DNA of 64,000 nt from Capsaspora owczarzaki ATCC 30864. Taxonomy: Eukaryota; Opisthokonta; Filasterea. The notes under the pieces were generated by a model. The model saw only the letters and a list, made by a program, of their open reading frames with translations. It had not been told where the DNA came from and did no database searches. This document shows, piece after piece, positions 24,092 to 33,645 of the stretch. A program made the translations under genes and the position numbers. The stretch's first letter is position 1; each line of letters starts with the position of its first letter. The stretch lies in assembly GCF_000151315.2 (NCBI RefSeq), contig NW_011887295.1, positions 1,237,205 through 1,301,204 on the forward strand. The letters are read 5' to 3'.

Positions 24092-27000
24092 TTACGCGAG
24101 GTCGGCATTCCCCTTTCGCGTCTCATAGGTTGGATTTGCAACGTTTGATTCGCGCGATTTAGCGACCGAGCTGGTGGACGCCGCCTTTGAGGAACGGCGA
24201 CGTCGAAGGACCACAATCAACGCAACCAGCAAGACGAGAGCGAGCACGCCGCCAATCACTCCGCCAATAATAGCTCCGGAGGATGTATCACTTGACCCTT
24301 GGGGCACATTTGTCGCAGCAGCAGATGCAGCACTGGCAGCCGATGCACCACTGGCAGCCGATGCAGCACTGGCAGCCAATGCAGCACTGGCAGATGATGC
24401 AGACGCCTGTGAGGCGATTGACGCTGAAGACGCAACTGCAGCAATGGACGCGTTGGTCGCAGCCGATGCGAGGCAGAAGCCGCTCATCATCTCATAACCT
24501 TCATAGCATTGAGTGCAGGGATCAGATGAAGTGCAGGTCAGGCAGTTGACCCCGCAGCACGCACTGGAGCCAGCGTCATAGCAGGTGGCACAAACTGTAT
24601 CGCACGCTGCGATGCACAAAAGAAAGAAAGAAAAAAGTCAGAGAAACGATTACATGGCGGATTGCAACCGCGTGAAGCTGTCAAACGTACGGAACGGTTC
24701 GTCAACACTGCCGTATGTGCTGGGCGGAGCAACAGTGTTTCCACCAACGGCAAAGTTGTTGGGTTTCAAGGATTGGTCTCCAGAGTCTGACATATACAAG
24801 CCGTTGGGCAAGCCCTGAAACAGGCCAGGCGGCAGAGTGGTGAAGGGGTTGTCATTCAAATACCTAAGAGCAACTTGAAGTGAGAGGCGACTCGAACACA
24901 TTCAACTCAGAGCAATTGCTTACAAGTCACTCAGCGCAGTCAAGCGTGTGAATGCAGAGGCCTCAATGCTAGTGATCTGGTTGGCGGACAAATCTCTACA
25001 AGTTGTAGATACAGTCGCAAACGAGTGAGCAGGTTGTTGTGGGATTCTTCACGTCGTTACTTGCGTACAGGTAATTCAGCGCAGTCAGGCTTGCGAATAC
25101 GTTTGCAGAGATTGTGGTGATCTGGTTGAGACTCAAATAGCTACAGATAGAGTCGTCACGAATGAGCCGTTTGTCAGAGATTTTTCAGGTCCTTGGTTTG
25201 TACTTACAGGCTAGTCAGTGCAGTCAGGGCCGTGAATGCATTCACAGGCATGACGGTGATCGAGGCTTCTCTTAGATCCCTGCAGATAGCGTCACAAACG
25301 AGTGAGCAGTTTGTTCGTGATTCTTCCTGGCCTCTCTTGCTTACAAGTCGATCAGCGCAGTAAGGCCTGCGAATGCATTCGCATCAATGCTGGCGAGCTG
25401 GTTTTGCTGCAAAAACCTAAGCAGAGTCACAAACGAGTGAGTCGCTTGTGCTGAATTCATCCTGGCCTCGCTTGCTTACAATCCGGTCAGCGCAGTAAGG
25501 CTTGCAAAAGCATTGGCAGGAATGTTGGTGATCTGGTTTTCGTTCAGATATCTACAGATAGAGTCGCGAACAAGTGAGCAGTTCGTGTGCGATTCTTCAT
25601 GCCTTTGATTGCTCACAGAAAATTCAGCGCAGTCAGGCTTGCAATTGCATTGGCAGGAATGACGGTGATCAGGTTACCGGATAAATCTCTGCCAAAAATA
25701 GAGTCGCCAACAACAACAAGTCAGCCGTTGGTGTGTGCGTCCTCATGTCTGTACTTCCTCATGTCTTTGCTGGCTTACAAGGAATCCAGAACAGACAGGC
25801 CTGAGAAAGCGTTTGCAAATATGGTGGTGATCTTGTTGGCGTAGAGCTTCCTACATGTCGTCACACAGAAAAACAAAAGTGAGCTCTTTCGCATGTGGTT
25901 CTTCATGACTTTGGCTTGCTTACAGGTCAGTCAGCCCGGGCAGGTTTGTGAACGCATTGACCGGAATGACGGTGATCTCGTTGTCGGATAAGTCTCTGCA
26001 AATAGAGTCGCCAACAAGTCAGCCATTTTATGTTTGAGTCTTCCTGTCGTTGCCTGCTTACAAGGCGCTCAGCGCAGGTAGATTTGTGAATGCGTTTGAA
26101 GAAATGCTCGTGATCGAGTTGGATTTGAGTCTCCTGCAGGTAGAGTCGCCAGCAAGTCAGCCATTTGTGTGCCGGTGCATTCTGTCATTGCTTGCTTACA
26201 GGGAGGACAGCGCAGGCAGATTTGTGAATGCGTTTGAAGAAATGCTCGTGATCGAGTTGGATTGGAGTCTCCTGCAGGTAGAGTCGCCAGCAAGTCAGCC
26301 ATTTGTGTGGGGGTGCATTCTGTCATTGCTTGCTTACAGGGAGGACAGCGCAGGCAGATTTGTAAATACGTTTGCCGAAATGCTAGTGATTTGGTTGGAC
26401 GGCAGATACCTACAGATAGGAATCACGAACGTGAGTGAGCCGTTTCCGTGGTTCTACATGAATTGGCTTGCTTACAGGGAGGACAGCGCAGTCAGGCCAT
26501 TGAATGCGTTTGAGGAAATGACGGTGATCGAGTTTTGGGACAGATATCTACAGGTGGAATCGTGAATGAGTAAACTTTTGGTTGTGATTCGGCACGTCCT
26601 TTCTTCTTACAATTCGTTCAGCGCACTCAGGCCTGTAAATGAATTTGCAGAAATGCCGGTGATGTGATTCTGTACCATATTTCTGCAGATCGCAGATGCC
26701 AAAAACAGAAGAAAAAAAAGTGAGCCATTTATCTGTGATTCATCCTCTCTTTTTGTTTTGGCATTGCTTACAAGTAAGTCAGTGCGGTCAGGCCTGCGAA
26801 TGCAGAGGGGGAAATGCTGGTGATCGCGTTGTTCTGCAGCTCCCTACAGATAGGAATCGCGAACGTGAGTGAGCCGTTTTCCGTGATTCTACATGAATTG
26901 GCTTGCTTACAAGTCTGTCAGCGCAGGCATGCCTGCGAATGCGTTTGCCACAATGCTGGTGAGCTGATTGCGGTCCAGTTGCCTACAGATAGACTCACAG

Positions 27001-29902: not shown

Positions 29903-32900
29903 TTACGCGTAATCGACCTGCCCAGATTGCGTGGAAGGTGCAGCATCGATCGTCGCGTAAGTAGTCGGCGAAGACTCGGAAGGCACGCGAACAGACGAGG
30001 GATTGGGCAGCGAAGGGTCGGCGTACTCGACACCGCTGCCTGACGCGTGCGTTGCACTGGAGGTATCCACGGTTGTATTGGCATACACAAGTTCCGAAGA
30101 ACCCATTGGAGCCTGGGGCGTTGAGCTAACATCTTCGTACAGGGCATGGTTTGCAGACAAGGATTCGTAGGCGGGATTCGCAATGTTTGACACCATGTCG
30201 CTGTGATCGGCAGTCTGGTAAGTCGGTTCGGAGCGGGATGCTGATTCGCGAAGTTTGCTGGCCACATTGGTGGTTGCCAATGCTTTTGACGAGCGACGAC
30301 GCCGAAGGGCCACAAACAGCGCAACCAGCATGAGGAGGGCAAACACGCCACCAATCACTCCGCCAATAATAGGTCCAGAAGATGCACCACTTGACTCGCT
30401 TGCAGCATTGGACGCAGCAGATGCGGCAGATGCAGCTGCGGCAGATGCAGCGGATGCAGCAGATGTCTGCCACACGGTCGAAGCAGAGGCAGCCGATGCG
30501 GATGCTTGTGAGGCGACTGAGACTGAGGACGCAGAAGCAAGGGAAGCAAACGATGCCGAGAGTGCCGAGGTCGCGGAAACATCCGAGGCGACAGATGCAG
30601 TCGAGGCAGAAGCGAGGGAAGCGAGCGAAATGCATGCTCCACTCATCATCACAAAGCCTTCATAGCACTGAGTGCAGGGATCAGATGAAGTGCAGGTCAG
30701 GCAGTTCGCTGCGCAGCACGCACCGGACCCAGCGTCATAGCAGGTGGCGCAAGCTGTATCACACTCTGCCGTACAAAATGTCAGTGAAATGCTCGAACGG
30801 GGATGGCAGTCATATTCGGAACTTACGGTATGGCGTGTCTGCAGTGCCGTATGTGCTGGGCGGAGCGACAGTGTTGTCACCAAATGTAAAGTTGTTGGGC
30901 TGCAGCGCTAGGGACCATGAGGATGAATGAAACGACAAACGCAAGCCATTTGGCAAGCCTTGAAACAGACCGGGCGGCAAAGTGGTGAAAAGATTGCCAT
31001 TCAAGGTCCTACAAGATCAACTTAGGTGAATCAAACACGTGTATGAGAGGTGAATCAAACACGTGCAATGAAAGCCGTTTCTTACAGGCCAACCAGTGCA
31101 GTCAGGTCTGCGAATGCAGTGGCGGGAACACTGGTGATTTGGTTGCCATCGAGCCGCCTACAAACCAAGTTGCAACGAGTGAGCCATAGGTGGGCGACTC
31201 TTTCATGCTGTTTGCTTGCTTACAAGTACTGCAACGCAGTCAAGCTTGTGAATGCGTCTACTGGAATGCTAGTGATCTGGTTGAGACCGAGATACCTAGA
31301 GATAGCATCGCCAAAGAGTGAACCACCATTTGTTGCTTTGTGTGCAATTCTTCAAGCTTTTGGCTTGCTTACAAGTACTGCAACGCAGTCAGGCCTGTAA
31401 ACGCGTTCGCGGAAATGCTAGTGATCGTGTTGTTGTCCAGCGCCCTATGGAGTCGTAAACAAGTGAGGCATTTACATGTGATGATTCCGGTCTTGGTTCG
31501 CTTACAAGAGAATCAGCGCATTCATGCTTGCAAAGGCGCCCGCGGGAATGGTGGTGATCAAGTTGCTGGATAGAACCCTACAAGGAGTCCCCAAACGACT
31601 GAGCCATCGGTGTGATGCTTCATGTCTTTGCTTGCTTACAAGCCTCCCAGCGCAGTCAGGCCTGCGAATTCGTCTGCGGAAACGCTGCTGATCAGGTTTT
31701 TGGATAGATCTCTACAGGTATAGGCGCGCAAACGAATGAGTCGTATGTGCGAAATTCTTCGGTGCCTTTTGCTGCTGCTTACACTCCTGCCCCCGCAGGA
31801 AGCCTTGCGAGTGCGTCTGCGGGAATGCTGGTCAGCCTGTTGGCGCCCAGGTGGCTGTAGAGAAAGTCGCAAACGAGTCAGCCGTTTGTGTGATTGTCGT
31901 GACTATGCCTTGCTTACACGTAAAGCAACGCAGTCAAGCCTGAGAATGTGTTTGCAGAGAGGCTGTTGATCTGGTTGACGGACAGATCCCTACATGCAAT
32001 CGTAAAATGAGGCAGCCGTTTGTGTATGATTCTTTTTTGTCTTTTTTGCTTTCTTACAGCGCAGTCAGCGCAGTTAGGCCTGTGAACGCGGTTGCGGAAA
32101 TGCTCGTGATCAGGTTGTTCTGCAAATATCTTTAGATAGAGTGGCAACCAAGTGAGCCTTTTTGTGTGATTTTTCATGTCTTTGCATGCTTACATCATTT
32201 TCAGTGCCGACAGGCCAGTGAATGCATTGGCGGCAATGGTAGTGATCGGGTTGTCCCTCAAATTGCTACAGAAAAAGAGTCGCAAACGAGTGAGCCAGTT
32301 GTAGGTGACTTCCAGTCTTCGCTTTCTTACATTGAAGTCAGCGCAGTCAGGTCTGGAAATGTGTCGGCCGAAATGCTGGCGATCTGGCCTGCTTCCATCT
32401 GCCTACAGGTAGAATCGCAAGAGAGAACGAGTGAGCTGTTTACGTGTGGAGCTCTGTATCTCGTCTTTCTTACAAGCTCTCCAGGGCAGTCAGGCTGGCA
32501 AATGCCGCTGAAGGGAACACGGTCATCGGGTTGAGACCCAGCATCCTACAAACAGAGTGCACCAACGAGTTCAGCAGGTTGTTTTTGATTATTCTTGTCT
32601 TTGCTTGCTTACAGGGAGGTCAGCGCAGTCAGGCCATTGAATGCGTTTGCAGAAATGACAGTGAGCTGGTTGGAGGACAGACCTCTGCCGATAGAGTCGC
32701 AAACGAATGAGCCATTCGAGGGTGATTCTGCGCGTCGATGCTTGCTTACAACCCGTTCAGCGAGGTCAGGTCTGCAAACACGTTGTCGGGAATGCTAGTG
32801 ATCTGGTTGGTATTCAGTCTTCTACAGATCGAGTCGCGAAACACGCGTCAGCTGTTGATATTTGATGCAGCATGTTTGGTTGTTTTTTGCCTTTGCTTAC

Positions 32901-33645
32901 AATTGAGTCAGTGCACTCAGCCCTGTGAATGCGTTGGCGGGAATGCTGCTGATCTGGTTGACGAACAGGTCTCTACAGATCGAGTTGCAAAAACGAGTGA
33001 GAGCCGCTTGTGCGTGATGATTCATGTCTGTTGTTTTGCTTGCTTACAAGCTAGTCAGCGCAGCCAGGTCTGCGAATGCGTTGGCGGGAATGCTCGTGAT
33101 CTGGTTGGAAAAGAGTTGCCTACAGAGTATGTCGCAAACGAGTGAGATGGGGTTTGTGTGTTGAATTTTCTTGGCCCTTGCTTGCTTACAAGGTATTCAG
33201 CGCGGTCAACCCTGAGAATGCGTTGGCGGGAATGCTCGTGATTTGGTTGCCGTGCAGCATCCTTCAATATAGAGTCGCAACCAAGTGAGCAATTTGTGTG
33301 ATGCTTGCTGCCGTTGTTTGCTTACAAGGTTGCCAGCGCGGTCAAACCTGAGAATGCGTTGGCGGGAATGCTCGTGATTTGGTTGCTGTACAGACTCCTA
33401 TCGATCGAATGCCAATCAGCATGGGCAATGCTTCAATTCAAGTTTTGTTCAAACGGCAATACGTACAGGGTTGTGGTTTCGACCGGGATTCCGCTTGGAA
33501 TGGTCGTGAGCCCCCGTCCCTCGCATTGGACAGTAGTTCCCGAGCAAGTGCACACGGTGCAAGCATCGTCTGCTTGTGTCGGTTGGACGTGATAAATCAC
33601 GCAGAGCAGCAGGAAGAGACCAAAGGCAAAACCCTTCGGCGTCAT
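29903..33645 (-). CDS. LRR receptor B: type I membrane protein with tyrosine-motif tail
   Basis: Minus strand, 20 exons, 815 aa. Exon 1 (33645-33467) encodes a signal peptide and LRR N-cap (ACTVCTCSGTTVQC). Seventeen 72-base exons between 33397 and 31086 encode one leucine-rich repeat each. Exon 31008-30827 gives the cap. The last exon (30765-29903) carries the Cys-rich module, an Ala/Ser stalk, a helix about 660-682, RRRR and a 133-residue tail. Tail tyrosines: 711 (EPTYQTA), 728 (NPAYESL), 738 (ALYEDV), 756 (VYANTT), 776 (EYADPS), 798 (TTYATI), 814 (VDYA). By family rules NPxY suits PTB domains, YxN suits Grb2-type SH2, and TxYxxI matches the immunoreceptor switch motif. I chose this start by alignment with receptor A; an upstream in-frame ATG at 33708 would add 21 residues and bury the signal peptide. 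Probably signals by recruiting a separate tyrosine kinase (inference). Confidence 0.9.
31086..33397 (-). repeat. LRR exon array B (17 x 72-base exons)
   Basis: Seventeen 72-base exons with left ends at 31086, 31224, 31373, 31506, 31640, 31783, 31918, 32058, 32194, 32331, 32474, 32613, 32750, 32901, 33048, 33190 and 33326. All introns are phase 2. The exon at 31783 encodes a degenerate repeat ending PAGAG, where the others have leucine/alanine spacing. Confidence 0.92.

Follow-up and report, generated by a model that had tools for sequence, protein, structure and literature searches.

Receptors that carry docking tyrosines and no kinase of their own are known in animals, where ErbB3 and the cytokine receptors signal via docking tyrosines that are phosphorylated by a partner kinase. 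Two of the immunoreceptor motifs have simple consensus forms: the ITAM consists of two YxxL/I elements separated by 6-8 residues, and the kinase that reads ITAM receptors (Syk/ZAP-70) has tandem SH2 domains, while the ITSM consensus is TxYxx[VI]. In plants, the LRR receptor-like proteins (RLPs) are kinase-less sisters of LRR receptor kinases and have the same ectodomain type; we know of no docking tyrosine cassettes in their short tails.

Outside animals and plants, membrane proteins with YxxP motifs were proposed as SH2 substrates in choanoflagellates (Salpingoeca PTSG_05573 and others) (PMC5043372). A first HMM described there retrieved Capsaspora proteins without YxxP, and a second retrieved Capsaspora membrane proteins too, some of them with YxxP repeats (PMC5043372). 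The same study records a CRK orthologue in Capsaspora and the binding of pYxxP peptides by the Crk SH2 domain of Monosiga, and describes the substrates that FAK, Src and Abl had in premetazoans as still unknown in 2016 (PMC5043372). The receptor described below, receptor B of Capsaspora owczarzaki, was presented in the initial annotation as the best candidate for an undescribed system. Because YxxP membrane proteins had already been proposed as SH2 substrates, with some Capsaspora hits among them (PMC5043372), that wording is too strong. What is new, as far as the literature listings show, is a mixed and ordered tyrosine cassette, the strong constraint on it, and the existence of parallel kinase-bearing and kinase-less families with one ectodomain module. 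Titles and opening lines of abstracts contained nothing on kinase-less LRR receptors of Capsaspora, a weak negative result, key papers lying outside that scope.

Receptor B is encoded in the window, the 64,000-nucleotide stretch of DNA that was analysed (Table 1). The rebuilt 20-exon model has GT..AG at every intron and a single open frame without internal stop, and Pfam assigns its product to LRR_8 (1.2e-123) and LRRNT (1.5e-8); the signal peptide was called by eye. The 182-nt exon encodes the last LRR and the C-cap, and the 17 other LRR exons are each exactly 72 nt long. The final exon encodes, in order, a Cys-rich domain, an Ala/Ser-rich stalk, a transmembrane segment (TM), RRRR and the tail, and positions 29903-30400 are the 3' end of this minus-strand gene, which takes in the last part of the stalk and, after it, TM, RRRR and the whole tail down to VDYA and the stop codon. 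In line with the initial annotation, which had described a tail of 133 residues with seven tyrosines and the motifs NPAY, YAN, YADP, ALYEDV and TTYATI, the gene model gives 132-133 residues (132 counted from the second Arg) and seven tyrosines, in EPTYQT, NPAYES, ALYEDV, LVYANT, VEYADP, TTYATI and VDYA. The reported absence of a catalytic domain was likewise borne out: Pfam detected neither kinase nor pseudokinase in the full 20-exon model, and receptor B is accordingly not a receptor tyrosine kinase (RTK), which has its kinase in the same chain. PF07714 has 176 matches in the genome, and among the matches listed none lies inside the window. The last exon alone gave Pfam matches below the cutoff only, including a similarity of the TM to TM_ErbB1 (E 7e-4), and a PDB sequence search with this exon gave no relevant match (best E 0.051).

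Table 1. Features of receptor B, with the last exon of its neighbour receptor A (positions within the window)
Feature	Position	Strand	Remarks
Receptor B gene	33645-29903	minus	20 exons, 815 aa, LRR receptor
Exon 1, signal peptide and LRR N-cap	33467..33645	minus	MTPKGFAFGLFLLLCVIYHVQPTQADDACTVCTC...; LRRNT 31-54
18 LRR units	30827..33397	minus	17 exons of 72 nt and one 182-nt exon
Cys-rich juxtamembrane domain	30629..30765	minus	common to kinase-bearing receptors
Transmembrane segment GPIIGGVIGGVFALLMLVALFVAL, then RRRR	30305..30376	minus	read from sequence
Kinase-less tail with seven Tyr motifs	29906..30301	minus	predicted cytoplasmic
Y1 codon, EPTYQT	30218..30220	minus	Tyr in 22/29 tails having the column
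Y2 codon, NPAYESL (NPxYxxPhi)	30167..30169	minus	Tyr in 30/31 tails, Phe in one
Y3 codon, ALYEDV (YEx[VI])	30137..30139	minus	Tyr in 31/31 tails
Y4 codon, LVYANT	30083..30085	minus	Tyr in 30/30 tails, column gapped in one tail
Y5 codon, VEYADPSLP (YAxP)	30023..30025	minus	Tyr in 31/31 tails, +3 Pro in 28/31
Y6 codon, TTYATI (TxYxx[IV])	29957..29959	minus	Tyr in 30/30 tails, column gapped in one tail
Y7 codon, VDYA at C-terminus	29909..29911	minus	24/31 tails with comparable Tyr in last ten residues
Receptor A last exon	24092..24619	minus	tandem paralogue, tail keeps NPTYET alone

The Cys-rich domain of receptor B links it to a family of kinases. Its 125 matches in the genome (matches, not genes) are followed by a kinase in 40 cases (a kinase match no more than 3.5 kb downstream; for five of these the distance exceeds 2 kb, and the kinase may be that of a neighbour), by a receptor-B-type tail in 33, by a weak tail hit in 17 and by neither in 35. 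By a hand count from the distances, two matches share the same kinase in four instances and the same tail in one, which brings the totals to 36 kinases and 32 tails, and receptor B is one of more than 30 paralogues that exist beside about 36 kinases with the same Cys-rich domain. The best 20 non-self matches of this domain comprise nine with a kinase, seven with a tail, three with a weak tail and one with neither; because the classes are mixed in this way, the domain has no power to separate kinase-bearing from kinase-less receptors. The 35 matches with neither a nearby kinase nor a recognised tail may hide other tail types, and two loci of the weak-tail class (L079, L080) have further tyrosine-bearing tails.

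At six of the 20 kinase loci that were read (L064, L066, L067, L072, L075, L076), Cys-rich domain, stalk, TM, Arg cluster and a tyrosine kinase with HRD[LI]AARN follow one another, in this order, within a single ORF; L064, L073 and L076 show sequence of an LRR-type C-cap. Because these six sister loci place a kinase where receptor B has its tail, and in one ORF, the tail is cytoplasmic as judged from its position. An extracellular tail, which the initial annotation had named as an outcome fatal to its reading, is ruled out by the same six ORFs.

With the receptor B tail as query, 98 matching pieces were found in the searched genome (27.46 Mb, 29 contigs). Loci L001-L008, as repeats of later loci, were left out of the ORF scan, which gave 44 hits; 13 were dropped, and 31 distinct tails were aligned. 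Among those dropped were L009 (same as the window), L037 (same as L020), L031 (no in-frame TM) and L035 (two ORFs in different frames), in all of which the tyrosine motifs are nevertheless present; L042, L044 and receptor A, with tails of 19, 30 and 36 residues and one tyrosine each, which have lost nearly all tail motifs; L048, L050, L051 and L055, too divergent to align; and L057, with an SH3 domain in place of the tyrosine tail. Conservation was thus measured among paralogues within one genome, with LRRs checked in receptors A and B of the window and presumed in most paralogues, which were read near the tail. The aligned core tails have 4-13 tyrosines each, and in nine of the 31 the Y3-Y6 part recurs, partly duplicated, as a second copy.

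Several of the dropped loci are of interest in their own right. Receptor A has the same architecture as receptor B, LRR exons included, and with a single NPTYET in its 36-residue tail it has the appearance of a sister whose tail was deleted, perhaps a decoy; L042 and L044 are similarly shortened receptors. At L035 (C3:943032-946340), the TM part and the tyrosine tail lie in two reading frames, as would be expected of a pseudogene, of an intervening intron or of a mistake in the assembly. The product of L057:2-2284 (+) (C2:1964100-1968100) combines an M60/enhancin-like peptidase ectodomain (PF13402 6.6e-10, PF18642 6.2e-12) and a TM resembling that of these receptors with a cytoplasmic SH3 domain (PF14604 2.4e-14). 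L055:1205-2827 (+) (C5:1382500-1386700) encodes a kinase-less membrane protein that gave no match in a Pfam search and has 16 tail tyrosines, with several motifs of YxxP and DYEELP type; it may belong to the Capsaspora YxxP proteins to which PMC5043372 alludes.

Conservation of the seven tyrosines among paralogues, a check proposed in the initial annotation, was found for five of them (Y2-Y6), which are kept in 30/31, 31/31, 30/30, 31/31 and 30/30 tails. Mean column identity in the 31 tails is 0.92 for the six tyrosine columns versus 0.54 for the other columns, a level matched by one of 200,000 random column draws. Codon counts for Y2-Y6 give pS 0.76 and pN 0.005, and hence a pN/pS of 0.007, compared with 0.44 for the flanks and 0.66 for the linkers of the same tails; silent sites do vary, the third base being different in 661 of the 2466 Tyr-Tyr pairs. 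Site rates on a tree are lower at Y3-Y6 than in about 95% of the 110 other columns, and at Y2 lower than in 87% of them; all six tyrosine columns together give p 0.004. Y1 is faster than most, 73% of the 110 columns being as slow or slower, and is no more conserved than the average column. At Y7, many paralogues end in DYASIAN. Because tyrosines outside the modules are sporadic (1-3 of the 31 tails per column; one minority column, 8/25, is within the duplicated part), tyrosine is not retained everywhere in these tails. Chance tyrosine content is ruled out by the column identity and the tyrosine pN/pS of 0.007, and a neutral relic by the contrast of that value with the linkers; the same figures dispose of the objection, anticipated in the initial annotation, that the tyrosines might be unconserved in paralogues.

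This constraint also bears on the proposal that the tails are decoys or belong to decaying RTKs that lost their kinase, the similarity of their tyrosines reflecting recent ancestry or gene conversion. Several paralogues do lie in clusters with high similarity, and split or shortened members occur (L035, L042, L044, receptor A). However, ancestry or conversion alone is insufficient because tyrosines and linkers are under such different constraint (pN/pS 0.007 versus 0.66) within the same sequences, and Pfam finds no kinase in receptor B; we regard this proposal as very improbable.

The residues and distances around the tyrosines are constrained as well. At Y3 (LYEx[VI]), +1 Glu and +3 Val/Ile are each fixed in 30/31 tails and +2 is free; at Y6 (TxYxx[IV]), -2 Thr (30/30) and +3 Ile/Val (29/30) are fixed and -1 is free; the flanks of Y5 read VxYAxP, with +3 Pro in 28/31 tails, and those of Y2 NPxYxx[LVI]. 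The distance from Y5 to Y6 is 22 in 29/30 tails, and the gap between Y2 and Y3 is 8 in 22/31. Such alternation of fixed and free positions around each tyrosine looks like ligand selection.

Tyrosine contexts were further compared with shuffled sequences, a fit requiring E/D/A at +1 and L/I/V/M/F/P at +3. In eight divergent, unaligned tails (L046, L048-L051, L053-L055), 46 of 66 tyrosines fitted at both positions versus 3.8 expected, a result only partly independent in that these tails had been found via their similarity to that of receptor B. Juxtamembrane segments of the RTKs, usable at 14 of the 20 loci, had 25 of 103 tyrosines fitting at both positions (6.0 expected). The six loci without such a segment were L063 (HRDLKSPN) and L069 (no TM detected in the kinase ORF), which are unlike this receptor type, and L061, L062, L073 and L078, at which the pattern was missed or TM and kinase are in different frames. 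As a control, the Cys-rich domain and stalk from the same ORFs (27 sequences) showed fits at +3 in 30/85 tyrosines (13.0 expected) and at +1 in 52/85 (27.8 expected), each exceeding all 1000 shuffles, and a weak excess at both positions together (9/85, 4.4 expected, reached in 32/1000 shuffles); this excess is probably due to a single conserved Cys-rich domain that recurs in each of the 27 sequences. Because the ectodomain control is unclean and the test on divergent tails partly dependent, the main argument is the constraint on codons and columns rather than the shuffle test.

Compared with described motif classes, the tails are a mixture. The ITSM pattern TxYxx[VI] is present at Y6 in 29/30 tails, one or two copies of V.YA.P are found in 27/31 tails (none in four; L055 has more YxxP), and NPxYxxPhi, as in PTB ligands, in 26/31, although the PTB reading of NPxY is unproven. 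A strict ITAM at Y2-Y3 is rare (1/31 tails) because the second half ends in Val, and a strict ITAM reading is ruled out, while the looser pattern Yxx[LIV]-x6-12-Yxx[LIV] occurs there in 26/31. The Y4 motif is mostly VYAEA in the family versus LVYANT in receptor B itself; its +2 residue is Glu in 23 and Asn in five of 30 tails, which rules out the Grb2-type YxN as a family-wide feature. Thus, of the consensus types listed in the initial annotation, YxxP, TxYxx[IV] and NPxY extend to the whole family, and the Grb2 motif does not.

NPxY and the YxxPhi motifs at Y2, Y3 and Y6 also fit endocytic signals, a possibility absent from the initial annotation. The tail could be mainly a trafficking signal, with unphosphorylated NPxY and YxxPhi bound by AP-2 or PTB/FERM proteins for clathrin-mediated uptake of particles or lipids. 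YxxPhi fits Y1 in 15/29 tails, Y2 in 30/31, Y3 in 30/31 and Y6 in 29/30; PF02174 (IRS/PTB fold) has three matches in the genome, one of them in a 3220-codon frame that we would guess to be talin-like; and, in PMC13171883, Capsaspora membrane proteins with cytosolic NPXY are reported and the aggregation response appears dependent on clathrin-mediated lipid uptake. Endocytosis nevertheless fails to explain Y4 and Y5, because YxxPhi is found in 0/61 cases at these two positions although both are invariant as tyrosine, and a pure AP-2 signal is thereby ruled out. AP-2 binding, moreover, requires no +1 Glu, -2 Thr or +3 Pro, so the fixed residues at Y3, Y6 and Y5 would be superfluous, and 4-13 tyrosines per core tail seem beyond the needs of sorting. 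A mainly trafficking role is therefore unlikely.

The genome offers candidate readers and kinases for phosphorylated tails. It has 34 SH2 match pieces, 16 PTP match pieces and PF07714 kinases, Tyr as well as Ser/Thr types among them; for a canonical PTB reader, profile searches with PF00640 and PF08416 gave nothing, and came up empty in control genomes as well, so that this is not proof of absence. A peptide of 25 residues, the CoSrc2 N-terminus published in PMC6001378 preceded by an added Met, matches a 543-codon frame at 100%; an SH2 match 0.5 kb downstream lies in a frame of equal length, and kinase pieces come after it. This match and the general content of the genome make Capsaspora its very probable source, although a 90-nt homology arm of the Capsaspora coYki gene printed in PMC9170242 had no match, a result that weighs against the assignment and may stem from the masking of repeats. 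A candidate tandem-SH2 gene is placed at C2:2311766. Neighbouring SH2 pairs on C2, C9 and C13 have, by eye and among the matches listed, no adjoining kinase (introns could hide others), and a pair at C4:1846316 that does adjoin one is a single SH2 domain split over two pieces. At C13:292722-294496, a single strand carries SH2, SH2 and PTP pieces in succession over a span of less than 1.8 kb, a putative gene that would be SHP-like by layout.

This last gene raises the possibility that the tails recruit an SH2-SH2-phosphatase and damp the RTKs around them, in the manner of ITIM/ITSM receptors. TxYxx[IV] ranks with the most tightly constrained modules, and phospho-ITIM/ITSM of PD1 is bound by the SH2 domains of SHP2 (PMC10272835). 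YAxP and the ITAM-spaced pair, however, suggest further readers, and the sign of the output is unreadable from sequence. Inhibition concerns that sign; it is a variant within the explanation that we prefer, with which its odds overlap, and is by itself rather doubtful.

The sequences establish how the receptor B gene is built, that a family of similar tails exists, that the tyrosines and selected residues beside them are invariant, and that the Cys-rich/stalk/TM layout is common to these receptors and RTKs. On the explanation that we prefer, Capsaspora has a large family of co-receptors without a kinase, whose tails are probably their signalling ends and would be phosphorylated in trans and then bound by SH2 proteins. 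The co-receptor would be clustered with a sister RTK through the same or a related ligand, and either this RTK or a cytoplasmic kinase, for example CoSrc2, would phosphorylate the tail in trans. SH2 proteins would then dock on the predicted phosphotyrosines: a likely partner of pYAxP is a Crk-type adaptor, and a likely partner of the ITAM-spaced Y2-Y3 and/or TxYxx[IV] is a protein with two SH2 domains, either the SH2-SH2-phosphatase or a different tandem-SH2 protein. The doubling of the cassette in nine of 31 tails would raise valency, and the NPxY module may additionally drive uptake. If co-receptors do assemble with RTKs, as we infer, a tentative extension is that the approximately 36 RTKs and more than 30 kinase-less co-receptors, sharing an ectodomain module, pair combinatorially, and that the ordered ITAM-like, YxxP and ITSM-like modules encode the output. 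If this proved true, a logic of the immunoreceptor type would be older than the immune receptors of animals or would have arisen separately from them.

The origin of animal signalling includes the question of how docking receptors without a kinase came to cooperate with receptor kinases, and the tail family provides dozens of concrete candidate substrates for premetazoan tyrosine kinases. More than 30 paralogues retain the tyrosine modules as their linkers drift, a natural experiment in motif grammar through which SH2 specificity before animals becomes directly testable; Capsaspora can be transfected and edited (PMC6001378, PMC9170242).

Among described systems, the premetazoan YxxP proteins resemble this family in being membrane proteins of unicellular holozoans with cytosolic tyrosine motifs and proposed SH2 docking (PMC5043372). 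They have YxxP repeats, and three have SH2-like domains (PMC5043372), whereas the Capsaspora tails have a mixed, ordered cassette of NPxY, YEx[VI], YxE, YAxP and TxYxx[IV], and the receptors that carry this cassette form a family parallel to the RTKs. The RM2 repeats of Monosiga RTKB2 are likewise tyrosine docking modules that recur in the tail of a receptor from a unicellular organism; these repeats, however, are in cis with a kinase (PMC3584944), and the Capsaspora family is kinase-less. Vertebrate ITAM/ITIM/ITSM immunoreceptors share with it the lack of a kinase, ITAM-like spacing and TxYxx[IV], and phosphorylation by a separate kinase would be a further likeness, but the ectodomain in Capsaspora is LRR rather than Ig, the second ITAM half ends in Val, no Syk-type tandem-SH2 kinase is found among the SH2/PF07714 matches listed, and there is no sign of homology. 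The proposed use of docking tyrosines with a partner kinase recalls ErbB3 and the cytokine receptors, from which receptor B differs in having no pseudokinase and another type of ectodomain. Finally, as in plant RLPs, the kinase-less sisters in Capsaspora share their ectodomain type with a kinase family; unlike the short tails of RLPs, theirs bear a docking-type tyrosine cassette.
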